Positions 14,318 through 29,766 of a stretch of DNA of 37,783 bases are shown here, piece after piece. The stretch's first letter is position 1. The number at the start of each line of letters is the position of its first letter. Below the pieces are notes generated by a model that did not search any database, was not told the origin of the DNA, and saw only the letters and a list, made by a program, of their open reading frames with translations. A program made the position numbers and the translations under genes. The DNA is from Phycisphaerales bacterium (lineage in GTDB: Bacteria; Planctomycetota; Phycisphaerae; Phycisphaerales; SM1A02): NCBI GenBank assembly GCA_009691705.1, contig SIAR01000025.1, forward strand, positions 1 to 37,783, in the 5' to 3' direction.

Positions 14318-15223
14318 ATGATCCAAACGATTCTTGAGTCGGTCATCTTGCCACTGATGTGCGGCACGGCAGTGTTGCTCGCGCCACACCATCCTTGGTG
14401 CGCAGATATAGGTCGCAGGGTTGACGCATGGACTGGCTCTCTTGCCGTCGCCGTCGTTGTGCTGCTCTCGCTGCTCATGGTTGAAGGCACAAGCGTGCTA
14501 TTGCTCGCGCAGCAATGGCAGTGGATCGCCGTCAGTGCAGCAATCGTTGGCATCGGCCTCTGGCTCTCGATGCGCACCGCGAGCAGAGTGTCGTCTGGCG
14601 CGGTGGTCGCGCTGGCGATCTTTATCTTGCGCCTTCCAGGTTACGACTCAGTGACAACACGGCTCATGCTCGCGGTCGCCGCAACTGTTGCGACGATCGC
14701 AGTCGCGCCTGCCGCAGCGCGCGAATCAGTTCGCATGCCAACAGCACTCGCACTTTCGTGCGCCTCACTCGCAGCGTTGCTATTGGGGGCGGGATCGCTC
14801 AAGTTGGCATTTGTTGCTGCATCACTCGCGTCGATCTGCGCAGCGGCGGCGACGCTGGCCGTGCTCGGCCGCAGTTTCTCGGCTGGCCCGACGCTGAGCA
14901 TTGCGGCGCTCGCACTGGCGCTCGCACTGGCGGTCTATGGATGCGCCTACCACGCGGGTAGCGGCGTCGAACCGTTTACCTTTGCGGTGGTCTGGGCGGC
15001 ACCACTCTTGCTTGCACTTCCCGCTGTGCAGCGCTCTGCACGAATTGCAAACGCGACCATTGCGCTCATCGCGTTCATCTGCGCAGTGATTGTGGCATAC
15101 GCGATGCAGTCATCCCAAGCATCGCAAGAGATCGAAGAGACCTCGCCCTCATACACTTCGATCTACGAAAGAGGAGCGAATGACACTGGAACACTTTCCT
15201 GGCATTGCACGGTTACAGTTTGA
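14318..15223 (+). CDS. Multi-span membrane protein of unknown function
   Basis: This 301-residue protein is very hydrophobic and Ala/Leu-rich, with about eight to ten predicted helices (for example residues ~43-70, ~92-110, ~115-130, ~143-175, ~190-212, ~220-236 and ~245-262). No transporter or enzyme motif is visible. The last ~35 residues are hydrophilic, and their reading frame overlaps the start of the xylose isomerase gene by 44 bases, so the extreme C-terminus may be poorly conserved. A cytoplasmic-membrane location is likely. The coupling to the isomerase might hint at sugar metabolism, but this is not shown by the sequence. Confidence 0.65.
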   Translation: MIQTILESVILPLMCGTAVLLAPHHPWCADIGRRVDAWTGSLAVAVVVLLSLLMVEGTSVLLLAQQWQWIAVSAAIVGIGLWLSMRTASRVSSGAVVALAIFILRLPGYDSVTTRLMLAVAATVATIAVAPAAARESVRMPTALALSCASLAALLLGAGSLKLAFVAASLASICAAAATLAVLGRSFSAGPTLSIAALALALALAVYGCAYHAGSGVEPFTFAVVWAAPLLLALPAVQRSARIANATIALIAFICAVIVAYAMQSSQASQEIEETSPSYTSIYERGANDTGTLSWHCTVTV

Positions 15224-16523
15224 TCCGACTCCGGCAGTGCGATCAATCGCGCAGTGCCGTCCAAGGTTTCATCACTACAACCCCAGCGAGATCGTCGCAG
15301 GGCGATCGATGCAAGATCAACTTCGCTTCGCAGCCTGCTACTGGCACACGATGCGTAATGGACTGGGCGATCCATTCGGCGCTGCAACGGCCCAAACTCC
15401 GTGGGACGACGGCAGCGCGTCGATAGAAAACGCAAAGCGCCGCGCAGATGCGTTCTTTGAGTTTCTCACAAAGTGCCAGATTGGGCGCTGGTGTTTTCAC
15501 GATCGCGATCTCGCTCCCGAAGGACAGACCATAGCGCAATCAGAGCGCAACCTCGATCAACTTGTTGCGCACGTCGCGCAACTGCAAAGCGCAACAGGTC
15601 ACCGCCTGCTCTGGGGCACAGCGAATCTGTTTTCGCATCCACGCTATTTGCACGGAGCGGCCACGAGTCCATCGGTCGATGTCTTTCTGCAAGCGACCGC
15701 GCAGGTGCGCAAGGCGCTCGAGGTAACGCAGGCGCTCGGCGGCGAGGGATATGTTTTCTGGGGAGGTCGCGAGGGATACGACACGCTCCTCAACACCGAC
15801 CTGGCTCGCGAGCGGGCGCAAATGGCGCGATTTCTACACATAGCATCGGATCACGCCCAGTCGATCGGATTCACAGGCGTGTTGCTCATCGAGCCCAAGC
15901 CGCACGAACCCACAACACATCAGTACGACAGCGACAGTGAGGCGACGCTGAATTTCTTGCGCGAGTTCGGTTTGTTCGGAAGGTTCAAACTCAACATCGA
16001 AACGAATCACGCAACGCTTGCGGGTCACTCGATGCAACACGAGTTAGCCGTTGCTAGCGCGGCAGGGTCATTGGGATCAATCGACGCAAACATGGGAACG
16101 TCTGGCCTGGGCTGGGACACCGATCGTTTTCCAACCGACGTCATGCTCACTACCGAGATCATGCTGGCGGTGCTCAACATGGGTGGTCTCAAGCAGGGGG
16201 GTCTGAACTTCGACGCCAAGCGACGCAGAGCGAGTTTCGAACCGGTTGATCTGTTTCACGCGCACGCAGCAGGAATGGATGCATTTGCGCTCGGGCTCAA
16301 GGCCGCCGCGCGCATTCGTGCTGATGGACGGTTGCACGAGTTCGTTCGCGCGCGCTACGAGTCGTGGGATGCCCCGCTGGGGCAGAGCATCCGCGCGGGT
16401 CAACTGACACTGGCGCAGTGCGCGCACGAAGCGACCAAGGTTGCGGTGGTAGCGCCCGCATCAGCGCGGCAAGAACTGCTTGAGTCAATTGTGAACGACA
16501 TTGTCTTTACGAGCGATCGCTGA
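15180..16523 (+). CDS. xylA: Xylose isomerase
   Basis: This enzyme interconverts D-xylose and D-xylulose (and glucose and fructose) in a TIM barrel with two divalent metals. The 447 residues match the long class II length. Visible active-site parts are H107 and D110 in WCFHDRD, the WGGREGYDTLLNTD segment, E238 and K240 in LIEPKPHEP, E274 and H277 in NIETNHATLAGH, D302 in IDANMG, and D313 and D315 in GWDTDRFPTD. ATG 15180 follows AAAGAGGAG, which decides the start; the frame is open upstream inside the preceding gene. No xylulokinase or transporter gene lies nearby. Confidence 0.96.
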   Translation: MTLEHFPGIARLQFDPTPAVRSIAQCRPRFHHYNPSEIVAGRSMQDQLRFAACYWHTMRNGLGDPFGAATAQTPWDDGSASIENAKRRADAFFEFLTKCQIGRWCFHDRDLAPEGQTIAQSERNLDQLVAHVAQLQSATGHRLLWGTANLFSHPRYLHGAATSPSVDVFLQATAQVRKALEVTQALGGEGYVFWGGREGYDTLLNTDLARERAQMARFLHIASDHAQSIGFTGVLLIEPKPHEPTTHQYDSDSEATLNFLREFGLFGRFKLNIETNHATLAGHSMQHELAVASAAGSLGSIDANMGTSGLGWDTDRFPTDVMLTTEIMLAVLNMGGLKQGGLNFDAKRRRASFEPVDLFHAHAAGMDAFALGLKAAARIRADGRLHEFVRARYESWDAPLGQSIRAGQLTLAQCAHEATKVAVVAPASARQELLESIVNDIVFTSDR

Positions 16524-16532
16524 GCGCAATCG

Positions 16533-17579
16533 TTACGGACTTCGCGGTGGTGCAACGTATCGGTACTCGCCATGGTTCTCGCGCGCGATTTGGCGCAGCA
16601 CAACTTCGCCCGCGAGGTCATGAAATCCAACGGTGTTGATCTCAACCGCGTGGTCACCATTGAACTTAGCGATCGCCGCGAAGGTCGCAAGCGGGTTGAA
16701 GCCACCGTCGGTCAGCAGGTAGATCGAATCTGGTTTCAGCCTCGAAAGCGCTAGTGCGAGTGCACCGCTTGGATCGGTGCCGCCATGCGCAGAAGCTCCA
16801 ACACTCTCAGTATCCGCCCACTGAAAATATTTCGACTTGTTTGAACTGGTCGCAGCAACCAGCGCTGCAGCAGGCATCGCCAACTCTTGATCATCAAAGA
16901 AAATCACGAAAAAAGAATGATCAGCCGGCAATCGATTCACGCTCTTTTTCAGTTCGAGAAGCACATGGTCGATCTTTGGATTGTCAACCGCTCCGAACAT
17001 GCTTCCAGAAAAGTCGAGGATGTAGACAATGCGTTTCGCCGAAGTTTCGACCCCCATGAACGATGTTCCAGAACCACCCATCGCTCCGGGCAGACCGCCG
17101 TTGCCGCGGCCACCAGGCGAGACGAGCACGGGCGAGACGGCCGGCGCGGTGACCGGCGGCTCATCGGGAGGGGTGAATCCAATGCGGGGCAGCACCCGCG
17201 TCGTCTCGGGCGCGTTGTTCCCACTAGCAATGGGTGCCGTCTGATTCATATCCGTGTTGGCATTCCCCAGCGGGTTGCCGTCGGGATCGGGAGTTTCGAG
17301 TCCGGGACCAGATCCCGCCGCGCCACCTCCGGGACCAGTTCCAGCGCCGTCCGTTCCGCCTGGTTGTCCACCACCGCCATTGATCTTCGACCGCCCCTGC
17401 TTCTCGTCAGGTGAGTCAGACGAATCAGCATCGCTGCCCCACCACGAAAAGAAGAGCAATATCCCCAAGATCAATGCGATCGATGGGAGGGCCTTGGTCC
17501 GATACGACTTTGGACAGGGTCGCATTGGCTCAATCGGCTGCTCAATCGGCTGCCCTTGGGCGAGTGGTGAGGAAGTCAT
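16533..17579 (-). CDS. Membrane-anchored von Willebrand factor A (VWA) domain protein
   Basis: This 348-residue protein has one N-terminal membrane helix (~32-47). A long Gly/Pro/Asp-rich, probably disordered linker (~50-175) follows, and then a VWA domain. The metal-ion-dependent adhesion site is complete: D189, S191 and S193 in DFSGSM, T268 in GGTDPSG and D291 in LLTDGG. It probably binds a protein partner through a bound Mg2+. It is transcribed divergently from the GTPase/motor operon across 92 bases containing a palindrome. VWA proteins are frequent partners of GTPase- and AAA-based assemblies, so it may belong to that system; that is inferred from position alone. Confidence 0.87.
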   Translation of the reverse strand: MTSSPLAQGQPIEQPIEPMRPCPKSYRTKALPSIALILGILLFFSWWGSDADSSDSPDEKQGRSKINGGGGQPGGTDGAGTGPGGGAAGSGPGLETPDPDGNPLGNANTDMNQTAPIASGNNAPETTRVLPRIGFTPPDEPPVTAPAVSPVLVSPGGRGNGGLPGAMGGSGTSFMGVETSAKRIVYILDFSGSMFGAVDNPKIDHVLLELKKSVNRLPADHSFFVIFFDDQELAMPAAALVAATSSNKSKYFQWADTESVGASAHGGTDPSGALALALSRLKPDSIYLLTDGGFNPLATFAAIAKFNGDHAVEINTVGFHDLAGEVVLRQIARENHGEYRYVAPPRSP

Positions 17580-17603
17580 TGGTTAGTATTTCAGCGGTTC
17601 CAC

Positions 17604-17617
17604 TCGTATTTATACGA
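17604..17617. promoter_or_regulatory. Inverted repeat in the divergent intergenic region (candidate operator)
   Basis: TCGTAT-TT-ATACGA is a perfect 6-base inverted repeat with a 2-base centre. It lies in the 92 bases between the divergent VWA and GTPase genes. The position suits a dimeric repressor acting on both directions. No regulator gene is adjacent. Confidence 0.4.
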
Positions 17618-17662
17618 CGGTGGGTCGATTCGTGATTCTCACGACCGGTCAAAAACCAAATT

Positions 17663-17667
17663 GGAGG
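17663..17667 (+). promoter_or_regulatory. Strong ribosome binding site for a TTG start
   Basis: GGAGG lies four bases before TTG 17672. It supports this rare start codon for the GTPase gene. No ATG is available near that point in the frame. Confidence 0.6.
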
Positions 17668-17671
17668 ATCG

Positions 17672-18973
17672 TTGCGTCGCAAATTACTCCCGAAGTTGCA
17701 ATGTCCGCACTGCTGGAACAAGTTTCCAGTCGCAGATGTGCTCTGGATCGCAACCCATCCCGACCTGCTAGGCGATCCAGTGCTCTCGGCTGATGATCCG
17801 CTGCGGTTTCTTCCTTCGCGATTCACTACCGCAGGCACCGCCATTGATGAACGCGGCTCGACCTGCCAGAGCCTCGCCTGCCCGCGCTGCCACTTAGGGA
17901 TCGCCAACGTACTGCTCGAACACCCAACGCGCATCCTTTCAATCGTGGGAACGCCCAGCAGCGGCAAGAGTTACTTCCTCACCTCTTGCGCATGGCAGTT
18001 ACGGCAGAAACTTGGGGCGTCGTTTGCATTGGCATTCTCAGATGCAGACCCTGTGTCTAATCGCGTCTTGACGAGCAATGAGCAACAACTCTTTTTGCAG
18101 GATGACCCCGAGAAATTAGTCTTTCTTGAGAAGACACAACTCGAAGGCTCGGCATACGACAGCGTGCAACTAGAACCAGGTCAGGCCACAATTCTTCCAC
18201 AGCCTTATCTCTTCACCATTCGTCCGACCTCGCAGCATGTCAATGCGCGCGGGGCGGCGAAGTTGACTGAGGTGCTCTGCCTCTACGACAACGCCGGCGA
18301 ACATTTCTTGCCGGGATCGGAGAGTCCGCTTTCGCCAACGACACAGCATCTCGCGCGATCGAAGAATCTCATGTTCGTCTTTGACCCAACGCAGGACGCC
18401 CGTTTTCGAGCGCGGTTGCGAGGACTCAGCAGCGATCCACAACTCGGACAGTTGGCGCGTGCATTTCGTCAAGACGTTGTCTTGCTCGAGATGGCATCGC
18501 GCGTGCGTTTGCACTCCGGCATGCCAGCCGACGAGAAGTTGCGACAACCACTGACGATCGTCGTCACCAAGAGCGACATCTGGGAGAGTTTGCTGTCGGG
18601 AGAGGACATTCGCAGTGATCCATATCTCATCGACCAACGCGATGATGGTGGGATGTTGGGAGTCGTTGACAAGGGGCGCGTCGAGCGGGTGAGCGATCTT
18701 CTTGAGTCGCTGCTGACCGAAATCGTTCCGGAGTTCATCTCGGCGGTGCGCGATACCGCGCTGCGGGTGCTCTATGTACCAGTGAGCGCAACGGGTGTCT
18801 CGCCCCAGATTGAAAGTTCTAGCGGAATGTTGAAAGTTAAGGCATCCAAGATCGATCCCTGGTGGGTGACCGTTCCATTCATTTATGAGTTCTCGCGATG
18901 GAAGAATGTTGTGGGATCGACCCGCGAGTCGAGCGCGCGCACCTCTGAGATACGCAACACCGATGGCGTTTGA
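17672..18973 (+). CDS. Zinc-ribbon TRAFAC-type GTPase (double-GTPase-2-like), first gene of the envelope motor operon
   Basis: 433 residues from a TTG start. An N-terminal four-cysteine zinc ribbon is formed by C11/C14 and C70/C73. A P-loop GTPase domain follows: G1 GTPSSGKS (93-100), G3 DNAG (206-209), a G4-like TKSD (299-302) and a G5-like VSA (371-373). The sequence between G3 and G4 (VFDPTQDARFRARL) resembles the DO-GTPase families that Aravind and colleagues described in NTP-dependent conflict systems; I name this from memory. No membrane helix is present, so it should be cytoplasmic. It overlaps the next gene by 11 bases. The GAP1-like next protein is its expected partner or regulator. 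Confidence 0.83.
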   Translation: MRRKLLPKLQCPHCWNKFPVADVLWIATHPDLLGDPVLSADDPLRFLPSRFTTAGTAIDERGSTCQSLACPRCHLGIANVLLEHPTRILSIVGTPSSGKSYFLTSCAWQLRQKLGASFALAFSDADPVSNRVLTSNEQQLFLQDDPEKLVFLEKTQLEGSAYDSVQLEPGQATILPQPYLFTIRPTSQHVNARGAAKLTEVLCLYDNAGEHFLPGSESPLSPTTQHLARSKNLMFVFDPTQDARFRARLRGLSSDPQLGQLARAFRQDVVLLEMASRVRLHSGMPADEKLRQPLTIVVTKSDIWESLLSGEDIRSDPYLIDQRDDGGMLGVVDKGRVERVSDLLESLLTEIVPEFISAVRDTALRVLYVPVSATGVSPQIESSSGMLKVKASKIDPWWVTVPFIYEFSRWKNVVGSTRESSARTSEIRNTDGV

Positions 18974-21284
18974 ACTGTTCTATACATCGGCCCCAAGGGG
19001 ACTGAAGCCGCAGACGAGCGGATTCTGCACTGTGGCGATGACCCGCGGTTTTCCTGCCCCATTTGTGCCGCGACTCGAGGCACTTTCGGGATATCGGCCT
19101 CCGCACGATGGCGCTTCAATCGAAGCCGCTCCCATCGCATGGTCGCACTGGATAGTCGATGCCGGAGGAGTTGAGCGGCATGTGCTCTCGGCGGTTGGTC
19201 CAACAGCACCAGATCACACGCTGCGAAACAACAAGTTTGCCCATCATCTTTTGCTGCGCGCCGACGAGTTGATCGAGGCGGGACCGGCGTGGGTGATCGC
19301 GCAACCTGGGATGATGGCCAATGAGTGGATTGGTGAACCACGGTTGATCGATGCTGAGCGCGCGTTGCCCGCGGCGACCGCCCCCACAAGTGATCGCTGT
19401 GAAACGTGGGATGCAGTGTGCGGCGATGCTGGTTGGGCTGGAGTCATCGCAAATGTTGTGATGATCGATCCATCGAAGTCGTGCTCGATTGTCTATCCGG
19501 TTGGGACTCCAGTGATCAAGCTGGTCGGCGAAGCATTGGCGTTGCTGCCCATCCACTGGCGTTGGCGCGTAACTTTTACGACATACTTCATGCAGCCGAT
19601 GGCGGGCACGCGCTGTGCTTGGCGTTTCTGTCTCGATGGAACCGAAGCTGCTTCTGCGGCTCGGTCAGGCGGTGGAACACTCGTCGATCTCTGCGCGCGT
19701 AATCCGTGCACGCACACGGGAACATTTATAGATCGCGCGCGACGAGGACAGGCAACAGCGCCGAGTGGCGCCGCGACTTCGAGTGGTGGCGCACAACCGC
19801 AGAATGCGCGCCGTGCTGCCGCAGCAGTAACCACAGCGGCAACGTCTGCGCAGCCTCGCAGGCGATCGCCCCAGCCACCAGTCGAAGAACCGCCGGTCGT
19901 TTTTGGAGTGGAGTATGTGCCCGACCATCAAGCAGAAGTGCGCAAGATCATTCTGTGGATTGCGGGAGTGGCGGCGGGGCTCTTGTTGTTGATTACTTGT
20001 GCGGGGGTGCTCTATTGGTATTCACTGCGAGCCACTGCAACAGATGAACCAGCACAACAGAACTCAACTGATCCCGCGATCACCACGCCAGCCGCACCGC
20101 CAAATCCAAATCCAAATCCAAATCCAAGTTCAAGTTCAAGTTCAAGTTCAGTGCAACTGCCTGACTCTGGTGCAGAGGCTGAAGGCTTGCCGCTGCCTCA
20201 AGAAGAGCCACCCGCGCAACCAACGCCAGAGTCAGCGCGCGTGAAGATCACGGCGACCACGGCGACCACGGCGACCACATCGACCACATCTATCGCAGCG
20301 GACGGAGCGACCGAAGCGAGTGGCCAGACTGCCCCATCAACGATGCCATCCGATTCCGCTGCATGGAAGGTCATCAAGTTTCCCGGTCCTGGAAAGGTGA
20401 TAGATGGGTCTTGGTCTGGATCAGCGACCGTCGATATCGGCATCGCGAATGGCGCGGCGCAGATAGAGTCATTCGCTTGGGCAATCACGCCGCGCAACCG
20501 CGTTGGCGAGTTCGAGTTTCCAGATGACCACTCGTTCGTGCGCCAAGATAAATCTAGTGTCGTGCGGACGATTGCCACGATCAGCAGCGATGCATCCCGA
20601 GCGAGATTCAGTTGGTGCGCCGATAGCGAAATGGTGCGAACACATCCGAACCTTCTCACCCAAGCCAACGCCGCACTCGGGCAGGTTCCCTTGGTTGCGA
20701 CGTTTGCAGACGGCTCAAGCGTGTGGTGCACCTCTGAGAAACTAACCACGACAACCATAGGTTCTGCGCCGCAAGTGGTGCCCATCGCGGTCCCCACCGC
20801 CCCGTGGCAGTATGCGCTGAATGGGCGCGAGTGGATCGCTTGGGATGACTCGACGCAGGTCGATCGCGAGGTCACGGTCGAAGTCACGGCGCGTGGCGAA
20901 CGCGTTGAGCTTGGCACGCTCACCCTCTCGAGAATTGGAACGAAGTGCACGCTCAAGTTTCTGCTCAACGCGGCGCTTGATCCACGCGCGCGGCGAGAGG
21001 CGATTGAGAGTGCGCAGAAGACGTGGCGGGATGCCCAGACTGAACTCACCGCAGCCAGCGGTGACGTCACCGCCAATGCAAAGGCACGTGCTGTGGCGGC
21101 AGGCACCGCAGAACTCACCGCGAAAGAATCGCTTGCGGCTGCTCGAACGGATTACGAATCTGCGAGGGTGAAGGCGCGCGCTCTCGATTCGTGGGAAGTG
21201 CTCGTTGGTAGCGAGCAGGGGATTCCAACTCGCATCACGATTCGCCCCCCCGAGTTTCCAGAGCTGAAGGGGACGACGCCATGA
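18963..21284 (+). CDS. GAP1-like (GTPase-associated) transmembrane protein
   Basis: This 773-residue protein starts at ATG 18963. Residues 1-255 look like the GAP1-N2 domain, the usual partner of double-GTPases (FELFYTSAPRGLKPQTSGF, DHTLRNNKFAHHLLL, WRWRVTFTTYF). A disordered Pro/Arg-rich region and one membrane helix (~329-353) follow. Beyond the helix is a low-complexity stalk (NPNPNPNPSSSSSSSS, residues ~381-396, and an Ala-Thr-Thr repeat). The C-terminal domain has beta-rich and coiled-coil parts (EIESAQK-like, ~680-745). The N-terminus is probably cytoplasmic and the C-terminus outside, so the protein could relay GTPase state across the membrane. Its outer part resembles the next gene product. 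The stop overlaps the next start by four bases. Confidence 0.8.
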   Translation: MAFELFYTSAPRGLKPQTSGFCTVAMTRGFPAPFVPRLEALSGYRPPHDGASIEAAPIAWSHWIVDAGGVERHVLSAVGPTAPDHTLRNNKFAHHLLLRADELIEAGPAWVIAQPGMMANEWIGEPRLIDAERALPAATAPTSDRCETWDAVCGDAGWAGVIANVVMIDPSKSCSIVYPVGTPVIKLVGEALALLPIHWRWRVTFTTYFMQPMAGTRCAWRFCLDGTEAASAARSGGGTLVDLCARNPCTHTGTFIDRARRGQATAPSGAATSSGGAQPQNARRAAAAVTTAATSAQPRRRSPQPPVEEPPVVFGVEYVPDHQAEVRKIILWIAGVAAGLLLLITCAGVLYWYSLRATATDEPAQQNSTDPAITTPAAPPNPNPNPNPSSSSSSSSVQLPDSGAEAEGLPLPQEEPPAQPTPESARVKITATTATTATTSTTSIAADGATEASGQTAPSTMPSDSAAWKVIKFPGPGKVIDGSWSGSATVDIGIANGAAQIESFAWAITPRNRVGEFEFPDDHSFVRQDKSSVVRTIATISSDASRARFSWCADSEMVRTHPNLLTQANAALGQVPLVATFADGSSVWCTSEKLTTTTIGSAPQVVPIAVPTAPWQYALNGREWIAWDDSTQVDREVTVEVTARGERVELGTLTLSRIGTKCTLKFLLNAALDPRARREAIESAQKTWRDAQTELTAASGDVTANAKARAVAAGTAELTAKESLAAARTDYESARVKARALDSWEVLVGSEQGIPTRITIRPPEFPELKGTTP
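20101..20148 (+). repeat. Hexanucleotide tandem repeat in the GAP1-like stalk
   Basis: Four exact CAAATC units (20101-20124) are followed by four exact CAAGTT units (20125-20148). They encode (Pro-Asn)n and then a poly-Ser tract just outside the membrane helix. A unit length divisible by three keeps the frame, so copy-number change would alter stalk length without breaking the protein. Confidence 0.95.
20250..20294 (+). repeat. Nine-base tandem repeat in the GAP1-like stalk
   Basis: Three exact ACGGCGACC units are followed by two diverged ones (ACATCGACC, ACATCTATC). They encode a Thr-Ala-Thr type tract in the extracytoplasmic stalk. The period keeps the reading frame. Confidence 0.88.
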
Positions 21285-22243
21285 CAACTGCTCGCGTGTG
21301 GATCGTGCTCGGCGCAATGTTGTTGGCAGAGCCATCTGCCGCTGTTCGGGCCGTTGCCTATGCCGCCTTCGATGACCCGGTGCTGCCGACGGTGCACGTG
21401 ATTCCGACGCGCGTCTTCGACGTTGTCATCGATGGGTTCAAGCAGGTCTCATCCGCAAATGTTTCGTGCGGATCGTTGCCAGGAGAGATCACAAAAATCG
21501 TTGTTTACCCAGAGATCAGCCCAAATGAGTCTTTCGCTTTCGATGCGGGCGATCACGCACTGACGCTGCGAATGAAACGAAACACGGGCAAGAAGCCCGT
21601 CGATGCTGGATCATTTTCATGGGATGGCGCCGCGCTCACCTGGTCGTGGAACACATTTCCGAGCAAAGACGTGGGCGATGGGGTGAAGAAACTGCGTCAC
21701 TTTCTCTCATCGAGTGCATTCATCGCGACACTAGCCGATGGACGCTTAGTCGTGCTCTGCCCGCCGCCAAGCGAACTCGCGTGTGCCGTGACGATGCAGG
21801 CAGATGGCATCCTGATGGGATCGGTTGACGCAGCGACGATTCCAGACACAGCGATCGTCTCGATTGAGCGAATCTCTGGCGGCGCATGGGTGAGCAGTTC
21901 GGCGCAGCCCGGTCTTGCCATGGGCACGATCGATGGAAACCTGTTTCGGATGACAGTGGTCGCCGGCAAGTGCACAGTGCAACAATATTCACCGCGACTG
22001 ATCGAGTTGCGAGAACTAACAAAACAGCTGCAAGAGAACAAGAAACTAGCGAATTCGCTGCCCGAGCGGCAGCGCAAGATTCTCGAGACAGAAGATGCCG
22101 CGACGGAAGTGAAGATCGCCGCACTCAAGAGTCAAGTCGAAGCAGACCGACTTCCACACTTAAAAGCTGTGCTGCGCATTCGCGCGACCGATGCGGCGAG
22201 CGGCCGTGTCTACGCAATGGTGACCGCCACGATAGGAGACTGA
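21281..22243 (+). CDS. Exported paralogue of the GAP1-like outer domain
   Basis: 320 residues beginning with a signal peptide (VWIVLGAMLLAEPSAAVRAVA). The mature protein has two beta-rich domains followed by a coiled coil (LIELRELTKQLQENKKLANSL, residues ~244 onward) and a final strand segment. Two segments line up by eye with the outer part of the preceding protein: IATLADGRLVVLC with VATFADGSSVWC, and MTVVAGKCTVQQY with LSRIGTKCTLKF, in the same order and spacing. The two could therefore form a hetero-oligomer outside the membrane. It overlaps the upstream gene by four bases and is followed after three bases by the next. No catalytic residues are evident. Confidence 0.72.
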   Translation: MTTARVWIVLGAMLLAEPSAAVRAVAYAAFDDPVLPTVHVIPTRVFDVVIDGFKQVSSANVSCGSLPGEITKIVVYPEISPNESFAFDAGDHALTLRMKRNTGKKPVDAGSFSWDGAALTWSWNTFPSKDVGDGVKKLRHFLSSSAFIATLADGRLVVLCPPPSELACAVTMQADGILMGSVDAATIPDTAIVSIERISGGAWVSSSAQPGLAMGTIDGNLFRMTVVAGKCTVQQYSPRLIELRELTKQLQENKKLANSLPERQRKILETEDAATEVKIAALKSQVEADRLPHLKAVLRIRATDAASGRVYAMVTATIGD

Positions 22244-22246
22244 TCT

Positions 22247-25177
22247 ATGCCACGCCCCCGAGAAGTCCTTGCCCTTGCTGAGCGCGTCCTCGAACGCGGT
22301 ATCAGTGAACGCGCTGCGGTCGAGCAGATCGCGATGCAATACACCGAAGCTACGGGCGAGATTCGCGCGCGACTCGGCCAGGCCACCGATTGTGCACGGC
22401 GCGGATTGCGCCTGGAAGTTCGGTCGATCGCCGAGGCACGGCCACCACTCATTGAGACCGCGACACTCTTTGCGACTCCGGCTGCAGATAAGTGGCGAGA
22501 GTTCTGCAAGGCGAATCAACTCACTGTTCCGCCGCGCATTTCTGAGGAGACCATCGCCGAGGTGCAAGAGGCGCTCAACGCACTGCTAGCCGATCGATTC
22601 GATGAGTTGCACGCGATCTTTCGCCAGCAGAATCTTGCACTCGCCCCCGCCTACCAGCGTCTTCGCACGTTGCGCTTGATCGCCAAGCGCGACGCAGCGA
22701 ATCCGATGTGGAGTGAGGATGTTGAGCGTTTCGAGATCGACTCGATACAGGAGTTACGTTCAACGTTTGCCGCGGCGATCAAGCACGAACGGCTCGAGGA
22801 GGCTCAAGAGATCGTTGAGACTCTGCGCCGCGAGGATTGGGTACGTCGCGATGCGCAGAAGTCTGCCGATCGATGCGAGAGAGAACTCTGGAGTGCGCAG
22901 GCAGCTCAGGCGGCAGTGCGCGCAGTGGCTGTCTCGCAGGAGATGTATGCGAACTACATGGCAGAGTCATTCGAGGGTGTGCGGGCCGGTCTTCAAGAGT
23001 GGGATCGACTCGGCGCGATCGCGGCGCGCGGCGGTGCGACGCTGCCCGAGGGGCCATCCACTATGGTTGGGCCCATCGTTGATTGGATGGTTTCGCGCGA
23101 GGCCGAGATGCAGATCGCGAATGAAACGCGGTCACAAATGGATGGACTCGAGCGGGTCGCGGTCGATGGATCGGCTTGCGCAGACGACATTCAGGCGCGA
23201 TTGGTGCAGGCAGAGCGCATGCCTGGCGGTGTTCCCAGCGAGTTGCGTGAACTTGCCCAGCGCCGCGTCGATGAGCACACAACGCGCGTGCGTGTGAGGC
23301 GCACGATGAAGTTCGTTGGGGGCGGTGCAGTGGCCGTTGCCGTGCTTGCGACAGCGGTCTGGCTGACGCGCGATTACCTCGATCGACAGAAGCAAAGCCA
23401 ATTCGCGCAAGCATTCTCGGCGGCAGTCGAACGGGGCGATGCCGGCGAGTGCGGGCGCCTTCTCGAACAATCGCGAATTGCTGTGGATGGATTCGACCAA
23501 GACGAGCGCGTGCTCGCAGCGCAGGCGCGTCTTGCGCAGGCGCAAGAGAAAGACATCGAGCAAGATGCTCGGTTCGAGTCGGCATTCGCCGCCGCTGGTG
23601 ATCCAACGGTTGCTAGCGGGCGCTCCGATGCGATCGATTCTGCAGCGCAACTCGCCCGCCTCGATGCGCAGCGCGAGCGGGTGCAGGTATGGCGTGATGC
23701 CCGAGCCGCTGCTGATGTTCGCACGCAACAGGCCCGCGACGGCGCATTTTTGGCGCAGGTCAAGAGCATGGCGGCGCAAATAGACGCACTCTCGGCGCTC
23801 GCGCCGCAGAGCAAAGAGGCGGGCGCGCAACTCGAGCGAATAGAGATACTCGCAGCGAACATTGGATCATCAACAGCAATCGGCAAAGAGGCGCGCGCCG
23901 CCTTTGATATGCAGCGAAGTCGGCTCGAGGGATCGCGCGAACTTGCCAATCACGAATCGCAGCGCGCGATCAATGAAGCAGAAGCAGCCGCCGCTCTTGC
24001 GAAACTGGTCAATGCGTCGGGTGATCCCAATCGGCTTGAAGGGCTGCTCGGCGAGTATGCAGAAACCCATCCCGACTCACCCTATGCCAGTGACTTTCGT
24101 GAGGCGGCGAGTCAAGGAAAGTCATGGCGACCAGTACTCGCGTGGCTTGCGCTCGCACCGACGTTGACGCGCGTGCCATTTCCGCAACTCGCCCAAGACC
24201 GCGCCGCGATTCGGCAGGGGCTTGAGGGCTTTCGGTCCAGTTATCGCGCGAGCCTCTTGGATGGATCGATTCGCGCGTACGGCGAACTCCTCTCAGACAG
24301 CAAGGGATGGACCGATTGGCTCAACAACATTCTTCGCACATGGACTCCAATGGACATGAACATGGTCGAGCTAGACACCGGCGAGCGCTATTACTTCTTG
24401 CCAGGCGATCTTCCCAAGCCGAGTGCGACCGCAGGCGTAGATGTCTATCAAGTGGTGTTGAGTTGGGCCGATGAGAAGCGTGGACCAGTGCGCATCGAGC
24501 GCAAGCGAATCAAGTCGCAGGGCGAGAGCCCGCAGGCAAAACTGCGCGCCCGATTACTGCCACTGATTCGCGGAGTGAATGCGACGACCACCGCCGAGGG
24601 TGCCATCGAGGTCATCCGCATGATTCGCGATGACGCGGCGGTCGATCCTGTCGCTCGTGCGTACCTCATCGGTGGACTGCTCGGCGAGATGCGGGCCAGT
24701 TTGCCGCAGCACGCCCCAGCGATCGACCGCGCGCTGGCCTTTCTTGTCGAGGAAGATCTCGTCGGCATCGATTGGCTGGCGCCGGGCAATCCAACCCGCC
24801 GAGTCGAATACAAGCGCATTCAAGAATTGCTCGTGAAATCACTGCCGTTGGCAGATTGGGTGAAGAACCAGTCGTCGCTGACATCACAGCTCACCCAGTG
24901 GCTGGCGAGCAAACTGCGATCGGTCGGCATTCTCGATCGAACGGTCGACCCAGTCCGCGTGATTTTCGCCGCGGGTGCGAAGACAAAGGTGGGCGAGAAG
25001 TTGTACGCAGTTGCCGCACCGAGCGCATCGCCTCCGCGCGTGGTCGAAGTTGGTTCGGTACAAGCCGACGGTTCGCCGCGCTTCAACGGTTCAGAGCGCA
25101 CACTGCCCAGTGGCGCCGTCATCTTCGCTGGATCATGGACCGATGGTCCCACACCACTCACCACGGAAACTAAGTGA
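22247..25177 (+). CDS. Large coiled-coil transmembrane protein of the motor operon
   Basis: 976 residues with one membrane helix at ~355-373 (FVGGGAVAVAVLATAVWL), flanked by basic residues. Residues 1-350 are helical and rich in Glu, Arg, Ala and Gln, probably a cytoplasmic coiled-coil or repeat domain. Residues ~380-640 contain more long helices (ERVQVWRDARAAADVRTQQA; LARLDAQRERV). The C-terminal ~330 residues are mixed, with a GERYYFLPGDLPKPSA stretch and a terminal beta-rich part. No enzyme motif was found. By size and topology it could be the scaffold connecting the GTPase side to the outer components. The GTG of the next gene overlaps its stop (GTGA). Confidence 0.7.
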   Translation: MPRPREVLALAERVLERGISERAAVEQIAMQYTEATGEIRARLGQATDCARRGLRLEVRSIAEARPPLIETATLFATPAADKWREFCKANQLTVPPRISEETIAEVQEALNALLADRFDELHAIFRQQNLALAPAYQRLRTLRLIAKRDAANPMWSEDVERFEIDSIQELRSTFAAAIKHERLEEAQEIVETLRREDWVRRDAQKSADRCERELWSAQAAQAAVRAVAVSQEMYANYMAESFEGVRAGLQEWDRLGAIAARGGATLPEGPSTMVGPIVDWMVSREAEMQIANETRSQMDGLERVAVDGSACADDIQARLVQAERMPGGVPSELRELAQRRVDEHTTRVRVRRTMKFVGGGAVAVAVLATAVWLTRDYLDRQKQSQFAQAFSAAVERGDAGECGRLLEQSRIAVDGFDQDERVLAAQARLAQAQEKDIEQDARFESAFAAAGDPTVASGRSDAIDSAAQLARLDAQRERVQVWRDARAAADVRTQQARDGAFLAQVKSMAAQIDALSALAPQSKEAGAQLERIEILAANIGSSTAIGKEARAAFDMQRSRLEGSRELANHESQRAINEAEAAAALAKLVNASGDPNRLEGLLGEYAETHPDSPYASDFREAASQGKSWRPVLAWLALAPTLTRVPFPQLAQDRAAIRQGLEGFRSSYRASLLDGSIRAYGELLSDSKGWTDWLNNILRTWTPMDMNMVELDTGERYYFLPGDLPKPSATAGVDVYQVVLSWADEKRGPVRIERKRIKSQGESPQAKLRARLLPLIRGVNATTTAEGAIEVIRMIRDDAAVDPVARAYLIGGLLGEMRASLPQHAPAIDRALAFLVEEDLVGIDWLAPGNPTRRVEYKRIQELLVKSLPLADWVKNQSSLTSQLTQWLASKLRSVGILDRTVDPVRVIFAAGAKTKVGEKLYAVAAPSASPPRVVEVGSVQADGSPRFNGSERTLPSGAVIFAGSWTDGPTPLTTETK

Positions 25178-26301
25178 GCGAACCGACGTACTGGGTTCGA
25201 CTTGGCACGCGCACAGAGGGTCCACTCTCGCTGAGTGAAGTGCGCTTGCGTGCCGCGCGCGGAGCACTCTCGCGCGTACACATGGTCTCACGCGATCGAA
25301 CGCGCTGGGTCGTTGCGGCGAAGGTGTCTGAGATTTTTCGCAGTAATGGCAGTGTGTGCACAGACGTTCTCGCATTGGCTCCCGTCGAAGATGCGCTCTC
25401 AATCGACTTTCCGGATGACGGTGCAGAGAACGGCATGTTTCAGGTTTCGCTGCCAGGCATGGCAATGGTGCGAGCCCAATGGATTCTCGTACCAGCGTGG
25501 ACTGTGATCGCAGTCGCTGCTCTGCTCCCAACGGCGCGACAATCAGCAGAGGCACTTCGCGCCTGGGATCTCGTGCAACTCAGTGAGTTCTTTGGATGGC
25601 GCGGAGTGTTGCTTGGATCACTCTGGCTTCTGATGCTGCTCATCGCAGCGATCGCGATCGGCATTGGCACGCTGGCGCGAGGCAACGCGCGCGCAGTCGG
25701 TGGACTTGTGGTCGGAGTGCTCGCAGTCGCCACCTGCACAGTGACAGTCTGGGCCGGCACCGCCAGTGGATTCATCGCTGGCACGACACTACTGCTCGCA
25801 GTGTTTGCAGTGCGGGTTGTTGATGCGATTCTGTATGGTCCATGTTCACAACCAGCGGGGGCACGAGAACCAGCGCTCACCCTGACCGAAACAGCAGTTG
25901 GGTTCTCGCTCGCCGTGACCACCATGCTTGTCGCGATCGTCGCTGTGGTGATCAAGGGTGTTCCGTTTTCGGTGGCGGCGTTCTTCGCCCTGGTCGCAAG
26001 CGCGTTGTGTGCTGTCGCCGCGGTGCTCGCAGGTGGAGAGTCGCCCAAGCGAACGCTCATTCTCTGGTTGTCGCTTGGCACAATTATTGCGGTCGTTCTG
26101 GCTCTGCTCGCAGAATCAATCACCGCGCACTTGCTGGGAGCACCGCGTATGGCGCTCTTCGAGGCTGTGCGGGCCATCTGCGTGACAGCGCTCACATCGC
26201 TCTGCGCATACGTTTCCTACTGTGAACTTCGCTACGTTCAACATCCAACCCCACCCGCGCCCGATATGAACGCGCTCAATTCAGAGGACATTGCACTATG
26301 A
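25174..26301 (+). CDS. GYF-domain multi-span membrane protein
   Basis: 375 residues from a GTG start. Residues 5-55 match a GYF_2 domain (YWVRLGTRTEGPLSLSEV ... RWVVAAKVSEIF), a small cytoplasmic module that in other proteins binds proline-rich peptides. About eight membrane helices follow (~103-119, 144-166, 176-194, 197-220, 241-260, 263-286, 293-312 and 329-349). It lies between the coiled-coil protein and the channel subunit, with four-base overlaps on both sides. The Pro-rich linkers of the GAP1-like or VWA proteins are conceivable GYF ligands, but that is inference. Confidence 0.78.
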   Translation: MSEPTYWVRLGTRTEGPLSLSEVRLRAARGALSRVHMVSRDRTRWVVAAKVSEIFRSNGSVCTDVLALAPVEDALSIDFPDDGAENGMFQVSLPGMAMVRAQWILVPAWTVIAVAALLPTARQSAEALRAWDLVQLSEFFGWRGVLLGSLWLLMLLIAAIAIGIGTLARGNARAVGGLVVGVLAVATCTVTVWAGTASGFIAGTTLLLAVFAVRVVDAILYGPCSQPAGAREPALTLTETAVGFSLAVTTMLVAIVAVVIKGVPFSVAAFFALVASALCAVAAVLAGGESPKRTLILWLSLGTIIAVVLALLAESITAHLLGAPRMALFEAVRAICVTALTSLCAYVSYCELRYVQHPTPPAPDMNALNSEDIAL

Positions 26302-27173
26302 CCACCACCAGCGACTCCACCCACTCAACTCCCATCGACGCGCGCAGTGGAGACCTCGAATGCATGATCGGATTTACAACCGGTCGCTACACCCGCACAC
26401 ACGGCCCATTCTGGTTTGGTATCGCGCTCGTGCTCACCGTGCTGACGTGGCTCGCGCTGAGTCCATTCAAGGGCACTTACTTCGAGAACGTCATCGCGAG
26501 CGGATGGCAAACGAATTGGTTCTGCATACTGTTTACTTGGTGGTGTCTGTGCATCTTGGTCGCCAAACTATTCAAGATTCGCGTGCAGCGGCGCGCGCTC
26601 GAGATTCATGACATCTTTCCCCGTCGCGGCGACTTCGTGCTCTCGCCAGGAACATCGGGCGACATCTTGGCGCGCATCAAACAACGGGTGAGCCGTCCCA
26701 AAGAGTTCCTGCTCTTCAACCGCGTCTCAATGGCACTCTCGAATCTTGGCAACATTGGTGAGGTGCGCGATGTCGGCGCAGTGCTCGATGCCCAAGCGGA
26801 TAGCGACTCGAGCACGGTTGACTCGTCATACACGGCGATTCGTGCGCTCATCTGGACGATTCCCGTGCTCGGATTTATCGGCACAGTGCTCGGACTCGGC
26901 ATCGCCATCGGCAATTTCACCGATGTGATTTCGGGTGGCGAGGTTGCCGCAGGGTCCGCGGCTACAAACGCGGGATCTATTCGTGAGAAACTCGCTCCGG
27001 TCGTGGGTGGACTAGCCACGGCGTTCAACACAACGCTCGTTGCGCTCGTCGCAGCAGTCGGCGTGCAACTCTTCACAACCTTCGTCTACAAACTAGAAGA
27101 AGACCTCTTGGATGACTGCACGCAGTACTGCAACGATCACATCGTGAGCCGTTTGAAACTGACCAACTGGTAA
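26298..27173 (+). CDS. MotA/TolQ/ExbB-like proton channel subunit
   Basis: 291 residues with four membrane helices (~37-54, 74-92, 183-206 and 235-264). TM3 contains IPVLGFIGTVLGLGIAIGNF and TM4 contains PVVGGLATAFNTTLVALVAA, the two conserved helices that surround the B-subunit helix in MotA/ExbB/TolQ. A cytoplasmic loop of ~90 residues separates helices 2 and 3, as in the family. Its job is to convert proton or sodium flow into movement, together with the two following proteins. It overlaps the GYF gene by four bases and precedes the first B-type subunit by 19 bases. It lacks the long cytoplasmic tail of ZorA: only ~27 residues follow TM4. Confidence 0.88.
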   Translation: MTTTSDSTHSTPIDARSGDLECMIGFTTGRYTRTHGPFWFGIALVLTVLTWLALSPFKGTYFENVIASGWQTNWFCILFTWWCLCILVAKLFKIRVQRRALEIHDIFPRRGDFVLSPGTSGDILARIKQRVSRPKEFLLFNRVSMALSNLGNIGEVRDVGAVLDAQADSDSSTVDSSYTAIRALIWTIPVLGFIGTVLGLGIAIGNFTDVISGGEVAAGSAATNAGSIREKLAPVVGGLATAFNTTLVALVAAVGVQLFTTFVYKLEEDLLDDCTQYCNDHIVSRLKLTNW

Positions 27174-27192
27174 TCGCACCGAGCTGCCCACC

Positions 27193-28053
27193 ATGTCGAA
27201 GCACGATGGAGTCTCGCCAATGTCCTTCTTTTCGTTTCAGGACATCATGGCGTGTGTCACTGGCATCATGATTCTGGTCGCGCTGATATTGGCGCTCGAT
27301 CCTCTTGGCGATATTCCCACTAGCGCGCGCAATCCTGGGCAATCACAGCAACTGCGACAGGGTCTTGACGGAGCACGGGCGCGGGTGGCCGAGGCTCAGA
27401 AAGGGCTTGAAGCAGCGAGTGCGGCGCTCGCAGAGGCGAAGGCGCGTCCCCAAGTGAGTGCCGATCAGTTGGAGCGTCTCGAGAAACTCGTCGCGAAAGC
27501 GCGCGAGGGAGTCATTGCGATCGAACGGCTGCGTGATTCGGCAAATGGCGATGCGCAGCGCCAAGAAGATCAAACGGTCTTGATAAATCGGGACTGCGAG
27601 CGCGCCAGTGAAAAAGTGCTCGCGATCAAACAAGACCTCGGCGACAAGTCGCTTCGGGCCCGCGTGCAATACCAAGCGGGTGATCGCGAGCAACTGCGTC
27701 CGCTCTTGTTCGAAGTGACGCCAACAGAGATTCGCGTTGGCGAACTTGATGAAATGGGAACCCCCAAGCAAGTCGCGACAGTGCGCGATGCCAGCGTCAC
27801 AACTGCACTACGCGTCTGGGCTGCGAGCACCCCCGTTGCGGGGGCGGCGCCCGAAGCGATCGCACTTGAACCACTGCTCAGGTCGCACCCGAGTTCGAAC
27901 TGGTATGTCATGCTGATCGTGCGCGACGATTCAGTGACGCTGTCGAATGGGTTGCGCGATCTTGTTCGAGCGCAGGGCTACGAGATTGGATGGCAAATCT
28001 GGGATGCCCACGATGGCGGGTTCTTTGATCTGCCACCGGAGTCACTGCCATGA
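27193..28053 (+). CDS. MotB/ExbD-like motor subunit, first copy
   Basis: 286 residues. A short N-terminus leads into one membrane helix (~12-36, FSFQDIMACVTGIMILVALI). D17 at its beginning is in the place of the proton-carrying aspartate of ExbD/MotB. A coiled coil (~55-115, rich in Glu, Ala and Lys) follows, then a C-terminal domain (~150-286) with RPLLFEVTPTEIRV and YVMLIVRDDSVTLSNGLRDL. The domain is not an OmpA-type peptidoglycan-binding domain. Similar proteins are common in planctomycetes. It should assemble with the MotA/ExbB-like subunit and with the next gene product, whose start overlaps its stop by four bases. Confidence 0.82.
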   Translation: MSKHDGVSPMSFFSFQDIMACVTGIMILVALILALDPLGDIPTSARNPGQSQQLRQGLDGARARVAEAQKGLEAASAALAEAKARPQVSADQLERLEKLVAKAREGVIAIERLRDSANGDAQRQEDQTVLINRDCERASEKVLAIKQDLGDKSLRARVQYQAGDREQLRPLLFEVTPTEIRVGELDEMGTPKQVATVRDASVTTALRVWAASTPVAGAAPEAIALEPLLRSHPSSNWYVMLIVRDDSVTLSNGLRDLVRAQGYEIGWQIWDAHDGGFFDLPPESLP

Positions 28054-28895
28054 TCATGCGGCGCAGAAGCAGGCGGCGTCGCCGACGGAAGGGAGCGGCG
28101 ACGACTGACGCATTCGAACTCTTTCTTGATGCGCTCTGCAACGCGCTCGGCGTGATTCTGTTCATCTTGCTCTGCGTGGTTGTGTTCGCGAAGAGCCCCG
28201 ATGGGGATCAGAAGCGAATGGATCCCGAGCAAATAGCGGCTGAGACGAAGGCACTTGACGCACAGGCCGCTCGCACGGAGGCGCAACTGACAGCAGTGCT
28301 CGCCGCGCTCTCAGCGCTGCCACCGTCGGGCGATCCTGAGAGCGTTCGTCGGAGGAAAGAGTTGCTTGGTGCGCTTGACACGATGCGCACCAAGAAACTC
28401 GCGGAGGTCGAAGCTGAGAAGCAGGCGCGTGCACGGCTGGCTGCAAGCGGCGTTGCACTCGTCGCTTCGGTAGAGAAGCGCAACAACCTCGCGGCGCAAC
28501 TTGCGCGGCTCGATGATGAGCGCAAGAAACAGCTGACAATGACGCAGTTTGTGCGCGTTGCTCGGTTGCGCGCAGATGGGCGCAAGGCAGTCCTCATCCT
28601 CTGCGCCGACGGCCGAGTGAGCATCGCAACACTCGTTGGCAAGGGACAAGAGATTGCTGAGCCAGTGGGGGTTGGCATCCCAGTCACCGACGAAGCTTCG
28701 GCGCGGTTGGCGATAGCACAGCTGTTTGGCGCAAAAACTCCCGACACCTTCCGGGCCGAGGTTGCCGTGTGGCCGAGTGGATTCGCCGCCTACAAACGCC
28801 TCGAACGAGTGATGATCGAGAAGAGATTCGGAATCAATCCGCTGCCGGTGGCTGCGGGCGAACCGATTCGCGAAGGGGCCGGCGGAATCCAGTAA
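28050..28895 (+). CDS. MotB/ExbD-like motor subunit, second copy
   Basis: 281 residues. A strongly basic N-terminus (MIMRRRSRRRRRRKG) precedes one membrane helix (~25-47, FLDALCNALGVILFILLCVV). D27 is followed seven residues later by G34, the same Asp-x6-Gly spacing as in the preceding protein. A coiled coil (~70-165) and a small C-terminal domain (KAVLILCADGRVSI; VAVWPSGFAAYKRLERVM) complete it. The two B-type proteins share architecture but little identity, so they are probably obligate partners. The 3' end overlaps the convergent EamA gene by 62 bases, and the operon ends here. Confidence 0.8.
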   Translation: MIMRRRSRRRRRRKGAATTDAFELFLDALCNALGVILFILLCVVVFAKSPDGDQKRMDPEQIAAETKALDAQAARTEAQLTAVLAALSALPPSGDPESVRRRKELLGALDTMRTKKLAEVEAEKQARARLAASGVALVASVEKRNNLAAQLARLDDERKKQLTMTQFVRVARLRADGRKAVLILCADGRVSIATLVGKGQEIAEPVGVGIPVTDEASARLAIAQLFGAKTPDTFRAEVAVWPSGFAAYKRLERVMIEKRFGINPLPVAAGEPIREGAGGIQ

Positions 28896-29766
28896 CGGTT
28901 GCAACAAGCGCTCCGCCGAGCATGAGCAACGCGCCGAACCACTTGCGCGGATCGAACGACTCATTCATCCAGAGCGATCCTGAAATCTCTGCGAAGAGCG
29001 CCTCAAGCGACAAGATCACCGCAGCGTGCGATGGTGGCGCCGATGTCTGCGCGAGTGCTTGCAGGGTGAACGCAATGGCGATGGCAAAGAGTGCCGAGAA
29101 GAGAATCGAGCCCCATCCTGCGCAGAGCAAGTCGACTGAGACCGGTTCGATGCTTAGAGCAATCACAGCCGATAGAACTCCGGTGACCGCGAACTGAACG
29201 ACGGCAATGCCAAGAGGATCGCCGCGACGAACAGCCCATCCAATCACGTGCACATGGCAGGCCCACGCGAGAGCGCATCCCATGAGATAGAGATCGTCCG
29301 ATTGAACCTCGACCGTGTCGCGAATGACGAGAAACCAAAGTCCAACGATGGTGAGCGCAACGCCGACCCAGACGCGCGCGAGCACGCGTTGACCGAGAAG
29401 TAATCCCAAGAGTGGCACCCACAACACATACGTGCCGGTGATGAATCCTGCGGTGCCCGCGGTGACTGTCGCCATCGCCTTCTGTTGCAACGATGCAGCC
29501 GTGAGCAGTGCGATCGATGCAGCTACTCCCCCGACCAGCGTGGTCAGCGTGCGTGCCTCGCCTCTGCGAATGACAAATGGCAGCAAGATCACTGCGCCAA
29601 TGAGAAACCGCGCGGCGTTGAAAGTGAATGGCGTGTCGCCCATCTGCTGCGTGGCAATGCGCTGCGCAACAAATCCGATTCCCCACAGTACGGCGCAGAG
29701 CAGCAGCAGGCCATCGGCTGATGCGACAGATAGCCGCAGTGGCAGCGGGGCAACAGGTTGAGTCAT
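28834..29766 (-). CDS. EamA/DMT-family transporter
   Basis: 310 residues with about ten membrane helices arranged as two EamA repeats, the second starting near WACHVHVIGWAV. Typical features include LLCAVLWGIGFVAQRIA in TM1, FNAARFLIGAVIL in TM2 and, near the C-terminus, VILSLEALFAEISGSLWMNE with the family's glutamate. The family exports metabolites and amino acids; the substrate is unknown. The ATG at 29766 overlaps the stop of the signal peptidase gene by one base (TAATG), which decides the start. It is the last gene of the minus-strand housekeeping operon. Confidence 0.93.
   Translation of the reverse strand: MTQPVAPLPLRLSVASADGLLLLCAVLWGIGFVAQRIATQQMGDTPFTFNAARFLIGAVILLPFVIRRGEARTLTTLVGGVAASIALLTAASLQQKAMATVTAGTAGFITGTYVLWVPLLGLLLGQRVLARVWVGVALTIVGLWFLVIRDTVEVQSDDLYLMGCALAWACHVHVIGWAVRRGDPLGIAVVQFAVTGVLSAVIALSIEPVSVDLLCAGWGSILFSALFAIAIAFTLQALAQTSAPPSHAAVILSLEALFAEISGSLWMNESFDPRKWFGALLMLGGALVATVTGFRRPLRESVRPQPPAAD

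Follow-up and report, generated by a model that had tools for sequence, protein, structure and literature searches.

An operon of eight plus-strand genes that joins a GTPase-GAP1 module to an ion-motor module of the ExbB/TolQ kind was found between positions 17672 and 28895 of contig SIAR01000025.1 from a Phycisphaerales bacterium (assembly GCA_009691705.1). The stretch analysed, here called the window, is the whole contig of 37,783 nt (contig C34 in our set; G and L numbers below denote genomes and loci), and the source genome is 1.99 Mb in size and 93% complete. The pairing of the two modules is real and conserved: the parts recur in relatives with the same conserved residues and in the same order, and the trees of the parts agree. 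Judged by sequence, the residues that a working GTPase and an ion path would need are conserved. A preliminary description of this DNA, drawn from the letters alone, had proposed a GTP-controlled, ion-driven envelope machine. The operon and its pairing of modules held up, the gene count did not, and the assignment of two B proteins to ExbD was not borne out by profile; the gating of the motor by GTP and the ion that drives it are retained here as suggestions.

The open reading frame (ORF) list agreed with the preliminary description in its positions (16533..28895) and in a divergent VWA gene, and gave eight genes in the operon interval where seven had been counted. All on the plus strand, these are a DO-GTPase with a split zinc ribbon, placed by ORF list, Pfam and alignment (17672..18973); GAP1, with GAP1-N2, GAP1-M, one transmembrane (TM) segment and a C-terminal domain (18963..21284); SEC (21281..22243); CC (22247..25177); a GYF_2 protein with eight TM segments after the domain (25174..26301); an ExbB/TolQ-type channel with four TM segments (26298..27173); B1 (27193..28053); and its paralogue B2 (28050..28895). 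The junctions are short, as had been described. GAP1/SEC, CC/GYF, GYF/ExbB and B1/B2 each overlap by 4 bases, SEC and CC are separated by 3 bases, and the largest gap, between ExbB and B1, is 19 bases. A possible exception is GTPase/GAP1, where the overlap is 89 bases if GAP1 starts at the first ATG of its ORF (18885) and 11 bases if it starts at 18963. The latter start is probably the right one, because the GAP1-N2 profile match opens at residue 27 of the ORF from 18885.

The GTPase carries the cysteine pairs C11xxC14 and C70xxC73, a Walker A motif GTPSSGKS at 93-100, DNAGE at 206-210, KSD at 300-302 and VSATG at 371-375. Residues were counted over 37 alignment rows, window included; alignment A4 contains one row that is not a GTPase, the isomerase of L034, and A9 omits the L034 row. 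The Walker A lysine is present in 36 of 37 rows, with one gap and one other row without the preceding glycine. DNAGE, and with it the Walker B glutamate, is likewise conserved in 36 rows (one gap), the aspartate of KxD in all 37, and the four cysteines of the single split CxxC...CxxC ribbon in 36 (one gap). The Pfam profile DO-GTPase2 matched 22 of 26 GTPases of the operon family at E<=0.01 (best 1.4e-10), so that the family fits the zinc-ribbon GTPase first described, although the window protein itself (E 1.2e-4, 22.2 bits) lies below the cut-off of 27. A sequence search of the PDB with the GTPase returned Der (6e-4). The assignment of GAP1 as a GAP1-N2-like transmembrane protein was firm, with both GAP1-N2 (E 6.6e-24) and GAP1-M (3.2e-11) above the Pfam cut-offs, and the profile searches thus did not overturn the module. 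Its TM segment (355-373, numbered in the ORF from 18885) follows these two domains, and the C-terminal domain is presumably periplasmic. In both GAP1 and CC, a single hydrophobic segment divides the protein into two large portions.

Among 73 distinct GAP1 linkers, the motif PPPL was counted 15 times against 1.04 in shuffles, the maximum in 2000 shuffles being 5. Linkers bearing it made up 10 of 39 in loci with a GYF gene and 2 of 34 in loci without one (p 0.029). We treat this enrichment as a lead only, because several of the occurrences come from near relatives and the window's GAP1 linker has no PPPL. In three planctomycete loci (L046, L048 and L050), the GTPase gene was flanked by two GAP1 paralogues.

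The ExbB protein, of 291 aa, matched Pfam MotA_ExbB above the cut-off (E 3.5e-7). In hhalign, it was aligned to a 5-row ExbB/TolQ profile at 96.6% (P 5e-10) with the threonine regions in register, and the GYF control reached 0.4%. On these comparisons and its conserved TM threonines, the operon ExbB is homologous to ExbB/TolQ, in keeping with the MotA/ExbB-like channel first described. D170, P189, T196 and T246 were invariant in 31/31 rows, window included; we take T196 and T246 to align with T148 and T181 of ExbB in E. coli numbering. The last TM segment ends at residue 263, leaving 28 residues. In PDB sequence searches, the window protein gave chance matches only and the ExbB profile reached TolQ at E 0.96. 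Members of the family also resembled ZorA: the most-matched PADLOC ZorA profile hit 23 of 29 members at E<=0.1 and the best match over all profiles was 4e-8, with TolQ matched by 19/29 (best 7.7e-5) and the NCBIfam ZorA by 15/29. In a quick tree with long outgroup branches, the operon ExbB clade (36 sampled rows) came together as a single group, apart from canonical and sister ExbB, with an SH-like approximate likelihood ratio support of 95.

B1 and B2 each have one TM segment and a long coiled coil that separates it from a C-terminal domain, which in B1 is of the alpha/beta kind. Each has an aspartate within the TM segment, D17 in SFFSFQDIM of B1 and D27 in LFLDALCN of B2, and the two fall in the same alignment column. 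They were aligned to each other by hhalign at 99.4% over the whole length and 96.1% over the C-domain alone, and are therefore paralogues. The TM aspartate was present in 61/61 rows, the window's two included, and among the named loci and the window in 75/75 B1 and 75/77 B2; the exceptions were a glycine in L124 and an odd extra copy in L155. Thus B1 and B2 appear to share with ExbD/TolR a single TM segment with an aspartate predicted to carry the ion. The preliminary description had called them MotB/ExbD-like, and by profile this was unsupported. Neither matched Pfam ExbD (PF02472), their hhalign scores against a 33-row ExbD profile were 0.3-17.7%, and an ExbD search of their own genome marked five places, none within the window. 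In a scan of 28 B1 members, ExbD was not among the families listed (25 of 61). The B profile retrieved coiled coils from the PDB by sequence. A predicted model of B1 is compatible with the TolR C-terminal fold and does not discriminate; the VIA list for this model held no ExbD, MotB or ZorB chain, which carries no weight against such kinship.

Sister ExbB modules without the GTPase (L064-L068) had serine in B1 (5/5) and aspartate in B2 (4/4) at the TM position. One aspartate seems to be enough in these modules, and the pattern therefore fits a B1-B2 heterodimer. They comprise an ExbB of 540-660 aa and B1- and B2-like genes (L064:5961-8385, for example), with GTPase and GAP1 not in the stretch compared. 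Two B genes per ExbB are not unusual, because the window's own genome, with three canonical ExbB, also has two ExbB-ExbD-ExbD sets; what is unusual is the GTPase-GAP1-CC company. These sets lie at G000:C43:69534-70809 and G000:C44:43353-44622, with a further ExbB on C18 and a further ExbD on C25.

SEC, a protein of 320 aa with an N-terminal hydrophobic segment at 8-26, had been taken for an exported paralogue of the outer domain of GAP1. Moderate support was obtained for this (hhalign 91%, pairwise E 9e-7), and SEC is probably a distant paralogue of that domain; of 36 near-complete named loci, 13 had a match to it of at least 25 bits. CC has 976 aa, with about 350 aa ahead of its TM segment (356-374) and about 600 aa behind it. 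No known domain was found in it apart from one weak Pfam match among 33 members, and PDB sequence searches gave helical bundles. The GYF membrane protein was under the Pfam cut-off for GYF_2 in the window (E 0.0035) and matched strongly in four chosen GYF-bearing relatives (3.8e-9 to 5e-31). In Victivallis vadensis the GTPase of the operon (L143:1452-3257) is fused to an N-terminal GYF_2 domain, and in L138 GYF_2 occurs together with trypsin.

To the question of whether these genes belong together, two surveys gave an answer. In the first, PF20013 was found in 31 of 392 genomes of the phylum, and ExbB profile A2 hit 72 of the 392 at 1e-10 with a gap in the scores, 20 places scoring over 270 bits and none of the others more than 198. 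GAP1-N2 (31 genomes) and top-scoring ExbB (20 genomes) occurred together in 16 genomes (Fisher 1e-16, uncorrected for kinship). In 14 of the 20, GAP1 and ExbB shared a contig and lay no more than about 8 kb from each other; in two (G342, G158), GAP1 was on another contig. The other four genomes had no PF20013 match: the contig of G409 opens inside CC, G393 has weak GAP1 and GTPase remnants only, and in G114 and G226 hardly anything of the operon is present besides ExbB. In the second survey, a scan of named genomes with one peptide pattern gave 523 ExbB relatives, the best 80 of which were analysed; some of these loci are the same contigs as loci of the 392-genome set. By record title, 78 of the 80 were from Planctomycetota, Lentisphaerota (including Victivallis vadensis DSM 14823) or Verrucomicrobiota, and L099 and L133, both metagenome-assembled genomes, bear other names. 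ExbB was called in 78, and the two loci without a call (L111, L119) were omitted from the gene-content counts. These rates describe this ExbB clade and not ExbB at large, because the loci were picked by ExbB likeness. In the 38 loci that extend 9 kb or more upstream of ExbB, the GTPase was present in 34, GAP1 in 37, CC in 37 and all three on the same strand in 34. With at least 2.2 kb downstream (72 loci), same-strand B genes numbered two in 63, one in 4, none in 4 and three in 1; L158 and L162, among those with none, have B genes on the opposite strand. B1 was ahead of B2 in 66/66 loci with two same-strand B genes. Since the order GTPase-GAP1-CC-(GYF)-ExbB-B1-B2 recurs in Planctomycetota and also in related phyla, the arrangement is far beyond chance, and the co-occurrence on which the preliminary description depended was found.

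The trees of the parts point the same way. Tree-distance correlations among GTPase, GAP1, CC and ExbB were 0.78-0.89 over 46 loci, species history included, and the permutation maximum was 0.28. GTPase-GAP1-CC is also present without the motor: 5 of 34 rows in the GTPase tree have no adjoining ExbB. The motor module is separable, because these rows stand in separate places and their genomes have no top-scoring ExbB.

Among 61 related genomes, the window's included, GAP1 was present in 19; within the genus it was present in 13 of 19. ExbB at E<=1e-30 was found in 25 of the 61, namely 17/19 in the genus and 8/42 outside it, three of the latter (G044, G048, G056) only via the lower-scoring sister ExbB. 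The two genus genomes without a match are cut by contig ends, the contig of G015 opening inside B2 beside EamA and that of G017 stopping just after EamA. Across the genus and several further genera of the family (L031-L034, L108-L110), the operon adjoins one or both of two sets of site markers. Upstream in the window these are YceI (13610-14260) and a xylose-isomerase-like gene (15090..16523, plus strand); downstream is an EamA transporter gene (28834..29943, minus strand), with LepB, PSP1 and Der beyond. The markers visible at each locus depend on the length of the stretch compared. We take the common site to be a trait of the family, because the markers were not found beside the operon outside the family, nor beside the short version of the operon in the genus. 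That version, shorter and divergent, was present in five genus genomes (L037-L042; GAP1 of 344-356 aa). In the trees of ExbB and the GTPase, its two sampled members lie apart from the main version, which makes it probable that replacement by transfer has occurred too. In a family genome without a GAP1 or ExbB match (G020), EamA directly adjoins the isomerase gene and the site is empty; in G022, G025 and G034, which also lack the operon, the flank genes are separated by 2-5 kb containing other ORFs. Of the ten flanking ORFs in the window, the eight with Pfam matches are all housekeeping genes (ParB, YceI, isomerase-like, EamA, LepB, PSP1, Der and iPGM). One chromosomal site among such genes argues against a mobile defence island.

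We are inclined, with modest confidence, to read the operon as encoding a GTP-switched, ion-driven, envelope-spanning machine, and we infer its assembly, stoichiometry, orientation, ion and direction of control as follows. An ExbB-type pentamer would hold one B1 and one B2 as a heterodimer. Protons or sodium ions would pass the TM aspartates and the channel threonines, turning or pumping the B subunits, and the movement would reach those portions of B1/B2, CC, GAP1 and SEC that lie in the periplasm. At the cytoplasmic face, the zinc-ribbon GTPase may dock on the N2 and M domains of GAP1, and its GTP state may set the engagement of the motor by GAP1 and CC. The GYF membrane protein may act as a tether between the components, in certain lineages perhaps via PPPL in the GAP1 linker. 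Because the locus keeps one site among housekeeping genes in those family genera that have the operon, we lean to a resident task in the envelope, supplying force for transport or maintaining integrity, and consider a mobile anti-phage system less likely. Its scattered occurrence outside the genus, together with the empty site, weighs against this lean and suggests an accessory, possibly protective, role. It is tentatively suggested, at somewhat below an even chance, that the operon represents an undescribed class of GTP-gated, heterodimeric motor, ExbB5-B1-B2, with an aspartate in both B subunits, a DO-GTPase/GAP1 clutch and GYF-PPPL contacts, doing mechanical envelope work in Planctomycetota, Lentisphaerota and Verrucomicrobiota.

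The resident task might also be that of a Tol/Ton-like energiser regulated by the GTPase, serving outer-membrane upkeep or the uptake of large polymers. The homology of ExbB, the TolR-compatible C-domain of the B1 model, the shared family site and the presence of ExbB in nearly all genus genomes are consistent with this, and we regard it as a serious contender that falls a little short of probable. Against it, no TonB, TolA or OmpA-like match was found in the nine proteins of the operon and the VWA gene, the genome already has its three canonical ExbB, and of the 42 relatives from other genera, 34 have no ExbB. B1 and B2 also differ from the subunits of TolQR/ExbBD in their long coiled coil and missing PF02472 match, and the operon differs in its GTPase.

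A conflict system of the GAP1-N2 type, anti-phage or anti-competitor, is plausible but on the whole doubtful. GAP1, CC or the outer proteins would sense an envelope attack, GTP hydrolysis would lift a block and the channel would drain or use the gradient. GAP1-N2/DO-GTPase systems have been proposed as conflict systems (Kaur et al. 2020, eLife, PMC7159879), and the patchy distribution beyond the genus, the empty site and the matches of ExbB members to ZorA profiles, shared with TolQ, suit such a role. The housekeeping flanks, a site common to several family genera, the agreement of the trees and the weakness of the PADLOC matches of the nine proteins (E 0.014 or more) argue otherwise.

We class the operon with the systems of Kaur et al., as a variant that carries a motor, because their main text names no ExbB, ExbD, MotA, TolQ or proton channel. 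In the parts of that work considered here, as in the operon, a zinc-ribbon DO-GTPase stands beside a GAP1-N2/GAP1-M protein with a C-terminal TM segment, a planctomycete GYF protein is fused to a TM-rich region (as in the window) or to trypsin (as in L138), and VWA genes lie near some of the types. The operon differs in adding the conserved ExbB, two proteins with a TM aspartate, and CC. Their GTPases usually have two N-terminal zinc ribbons; one split ribbon is conserved here. They also describe a fast-evolving companion with fibronectin type III repeats; the FN3 profile matched none of the nine window proteins (E<=1) or 33 CC members (E<=0.01), a search that diverged copies could escape. In the text of papers in PMC, we found no description of a GTPase-GAP1 module paired with an ion motor and no text joining ExbD with DO-GTPase or Zorya with ExbB and a GTPase. 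A phage-shock-protein paper there that mentions DO-GTPase names no ExbB or MotA, and the GYF domain and planctomycetes appear together only in Kaur et al. 2020.

Ion-driven motors of this kind are known in flagella, Tol/Ton systems, gliding, type 9 secretion and Zorya. If such a motor is tied, in a conserved operon, to a GTPase-GAP1 pair of its own, a class under nucleotide control would join this list. The function of DO-GTPase/GAP1 becomes a testable question, because ion flux or force from the motor can be read out directly and the mutants to make are given by the invariant aspartates and threonines. Natural variation in the sister modules, where B1 lacks the aspartate, offers a test of the number of ion sites required by a motor.

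We know of no gliding in these bacteria, which counts against an improbable further explanation, that the GTPase places or switches a TolQR-type motor moving envelope-spanning proteins for surface movement or adhesion, as in the Agl-Glt system of Myxococcus. In that system MglA is a small GTPase, and GltJ has a zinc ribbon and a GYF domain. By kind of parts the two are alike, with TolQ-type AglR, ExbD-type AglQ and AglS and MglA (as far as consulted in Luciano 2011, PMC3169522) corresponding to one TolQ-like and two TolR-like subunits, a GTPase and envelope-spanning partners; AglQ and AglS match PF02472, however, and B1 and B2 do not, and the GTPase of the operon is a DO-GTPase fused to a zinc ribbon. 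No Glt protein was identified in the operon, no search aimed at GltA-K orthologues having been made. The NCBIfam GltJ match of the window's GAP1 (0.0031) covers a low-complexity proline-rich part and was discarded as evidence. Zorya ZorAB, as described in the part of PMC11890865 consulted (a long cytoplasmic ZorA tail and a peptidoglycan-binding ZorB domain), likewise couples a MotA/ExbB-kind ion motor, with an aspartate in a TM segment, to proteins without a transport role; the operon differs in its two distinct B subunits and in its GTPase-GAP1. That the operon is itself a Zorya system is extremely unlikely despite the weak ZorA matches, as the long tail is missing from ExbB, B1 and B2 have no OmpA-type peptidoglycan-binding Pfam match at E<=1 and ZorC, ZorD and ZorE are none of the nine proteins, the last as first described. 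The ZorA profile NF033915 had no match at E<=1e-20 in 199 genomes of the phylum and none in 14 controls either, and was uninformative.

The divergent VWA gene (16533..17579, minus strand) encodes 348 aa with an N-terminal TM segment (30-48), a glycine-rich linker and a C-terminal VWA domain containing the metal-site motif DxSGS. Its match to VWA_3 (E 3.1e-5) is under the Pfam cut-off. A relative was found in 12 of the 20 loci L023-L042 and, at 25 bits or more, in 15 of 36 near-complete named loci; in two genus genomes it is part of a protein of about 1000 aa (L029:2177-5176, L030:13976-16972). The 3' ends of B2 and EamA overlap convergently by 62 bases (28834-28895), and a similar overlap was present in L023. 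In G035, GAP1 and CC lie at the usual site without an adjoining GTPase (L034:6566-11712, G035:C3), and ExbB is on another contig (G035:C7:384179-385021).

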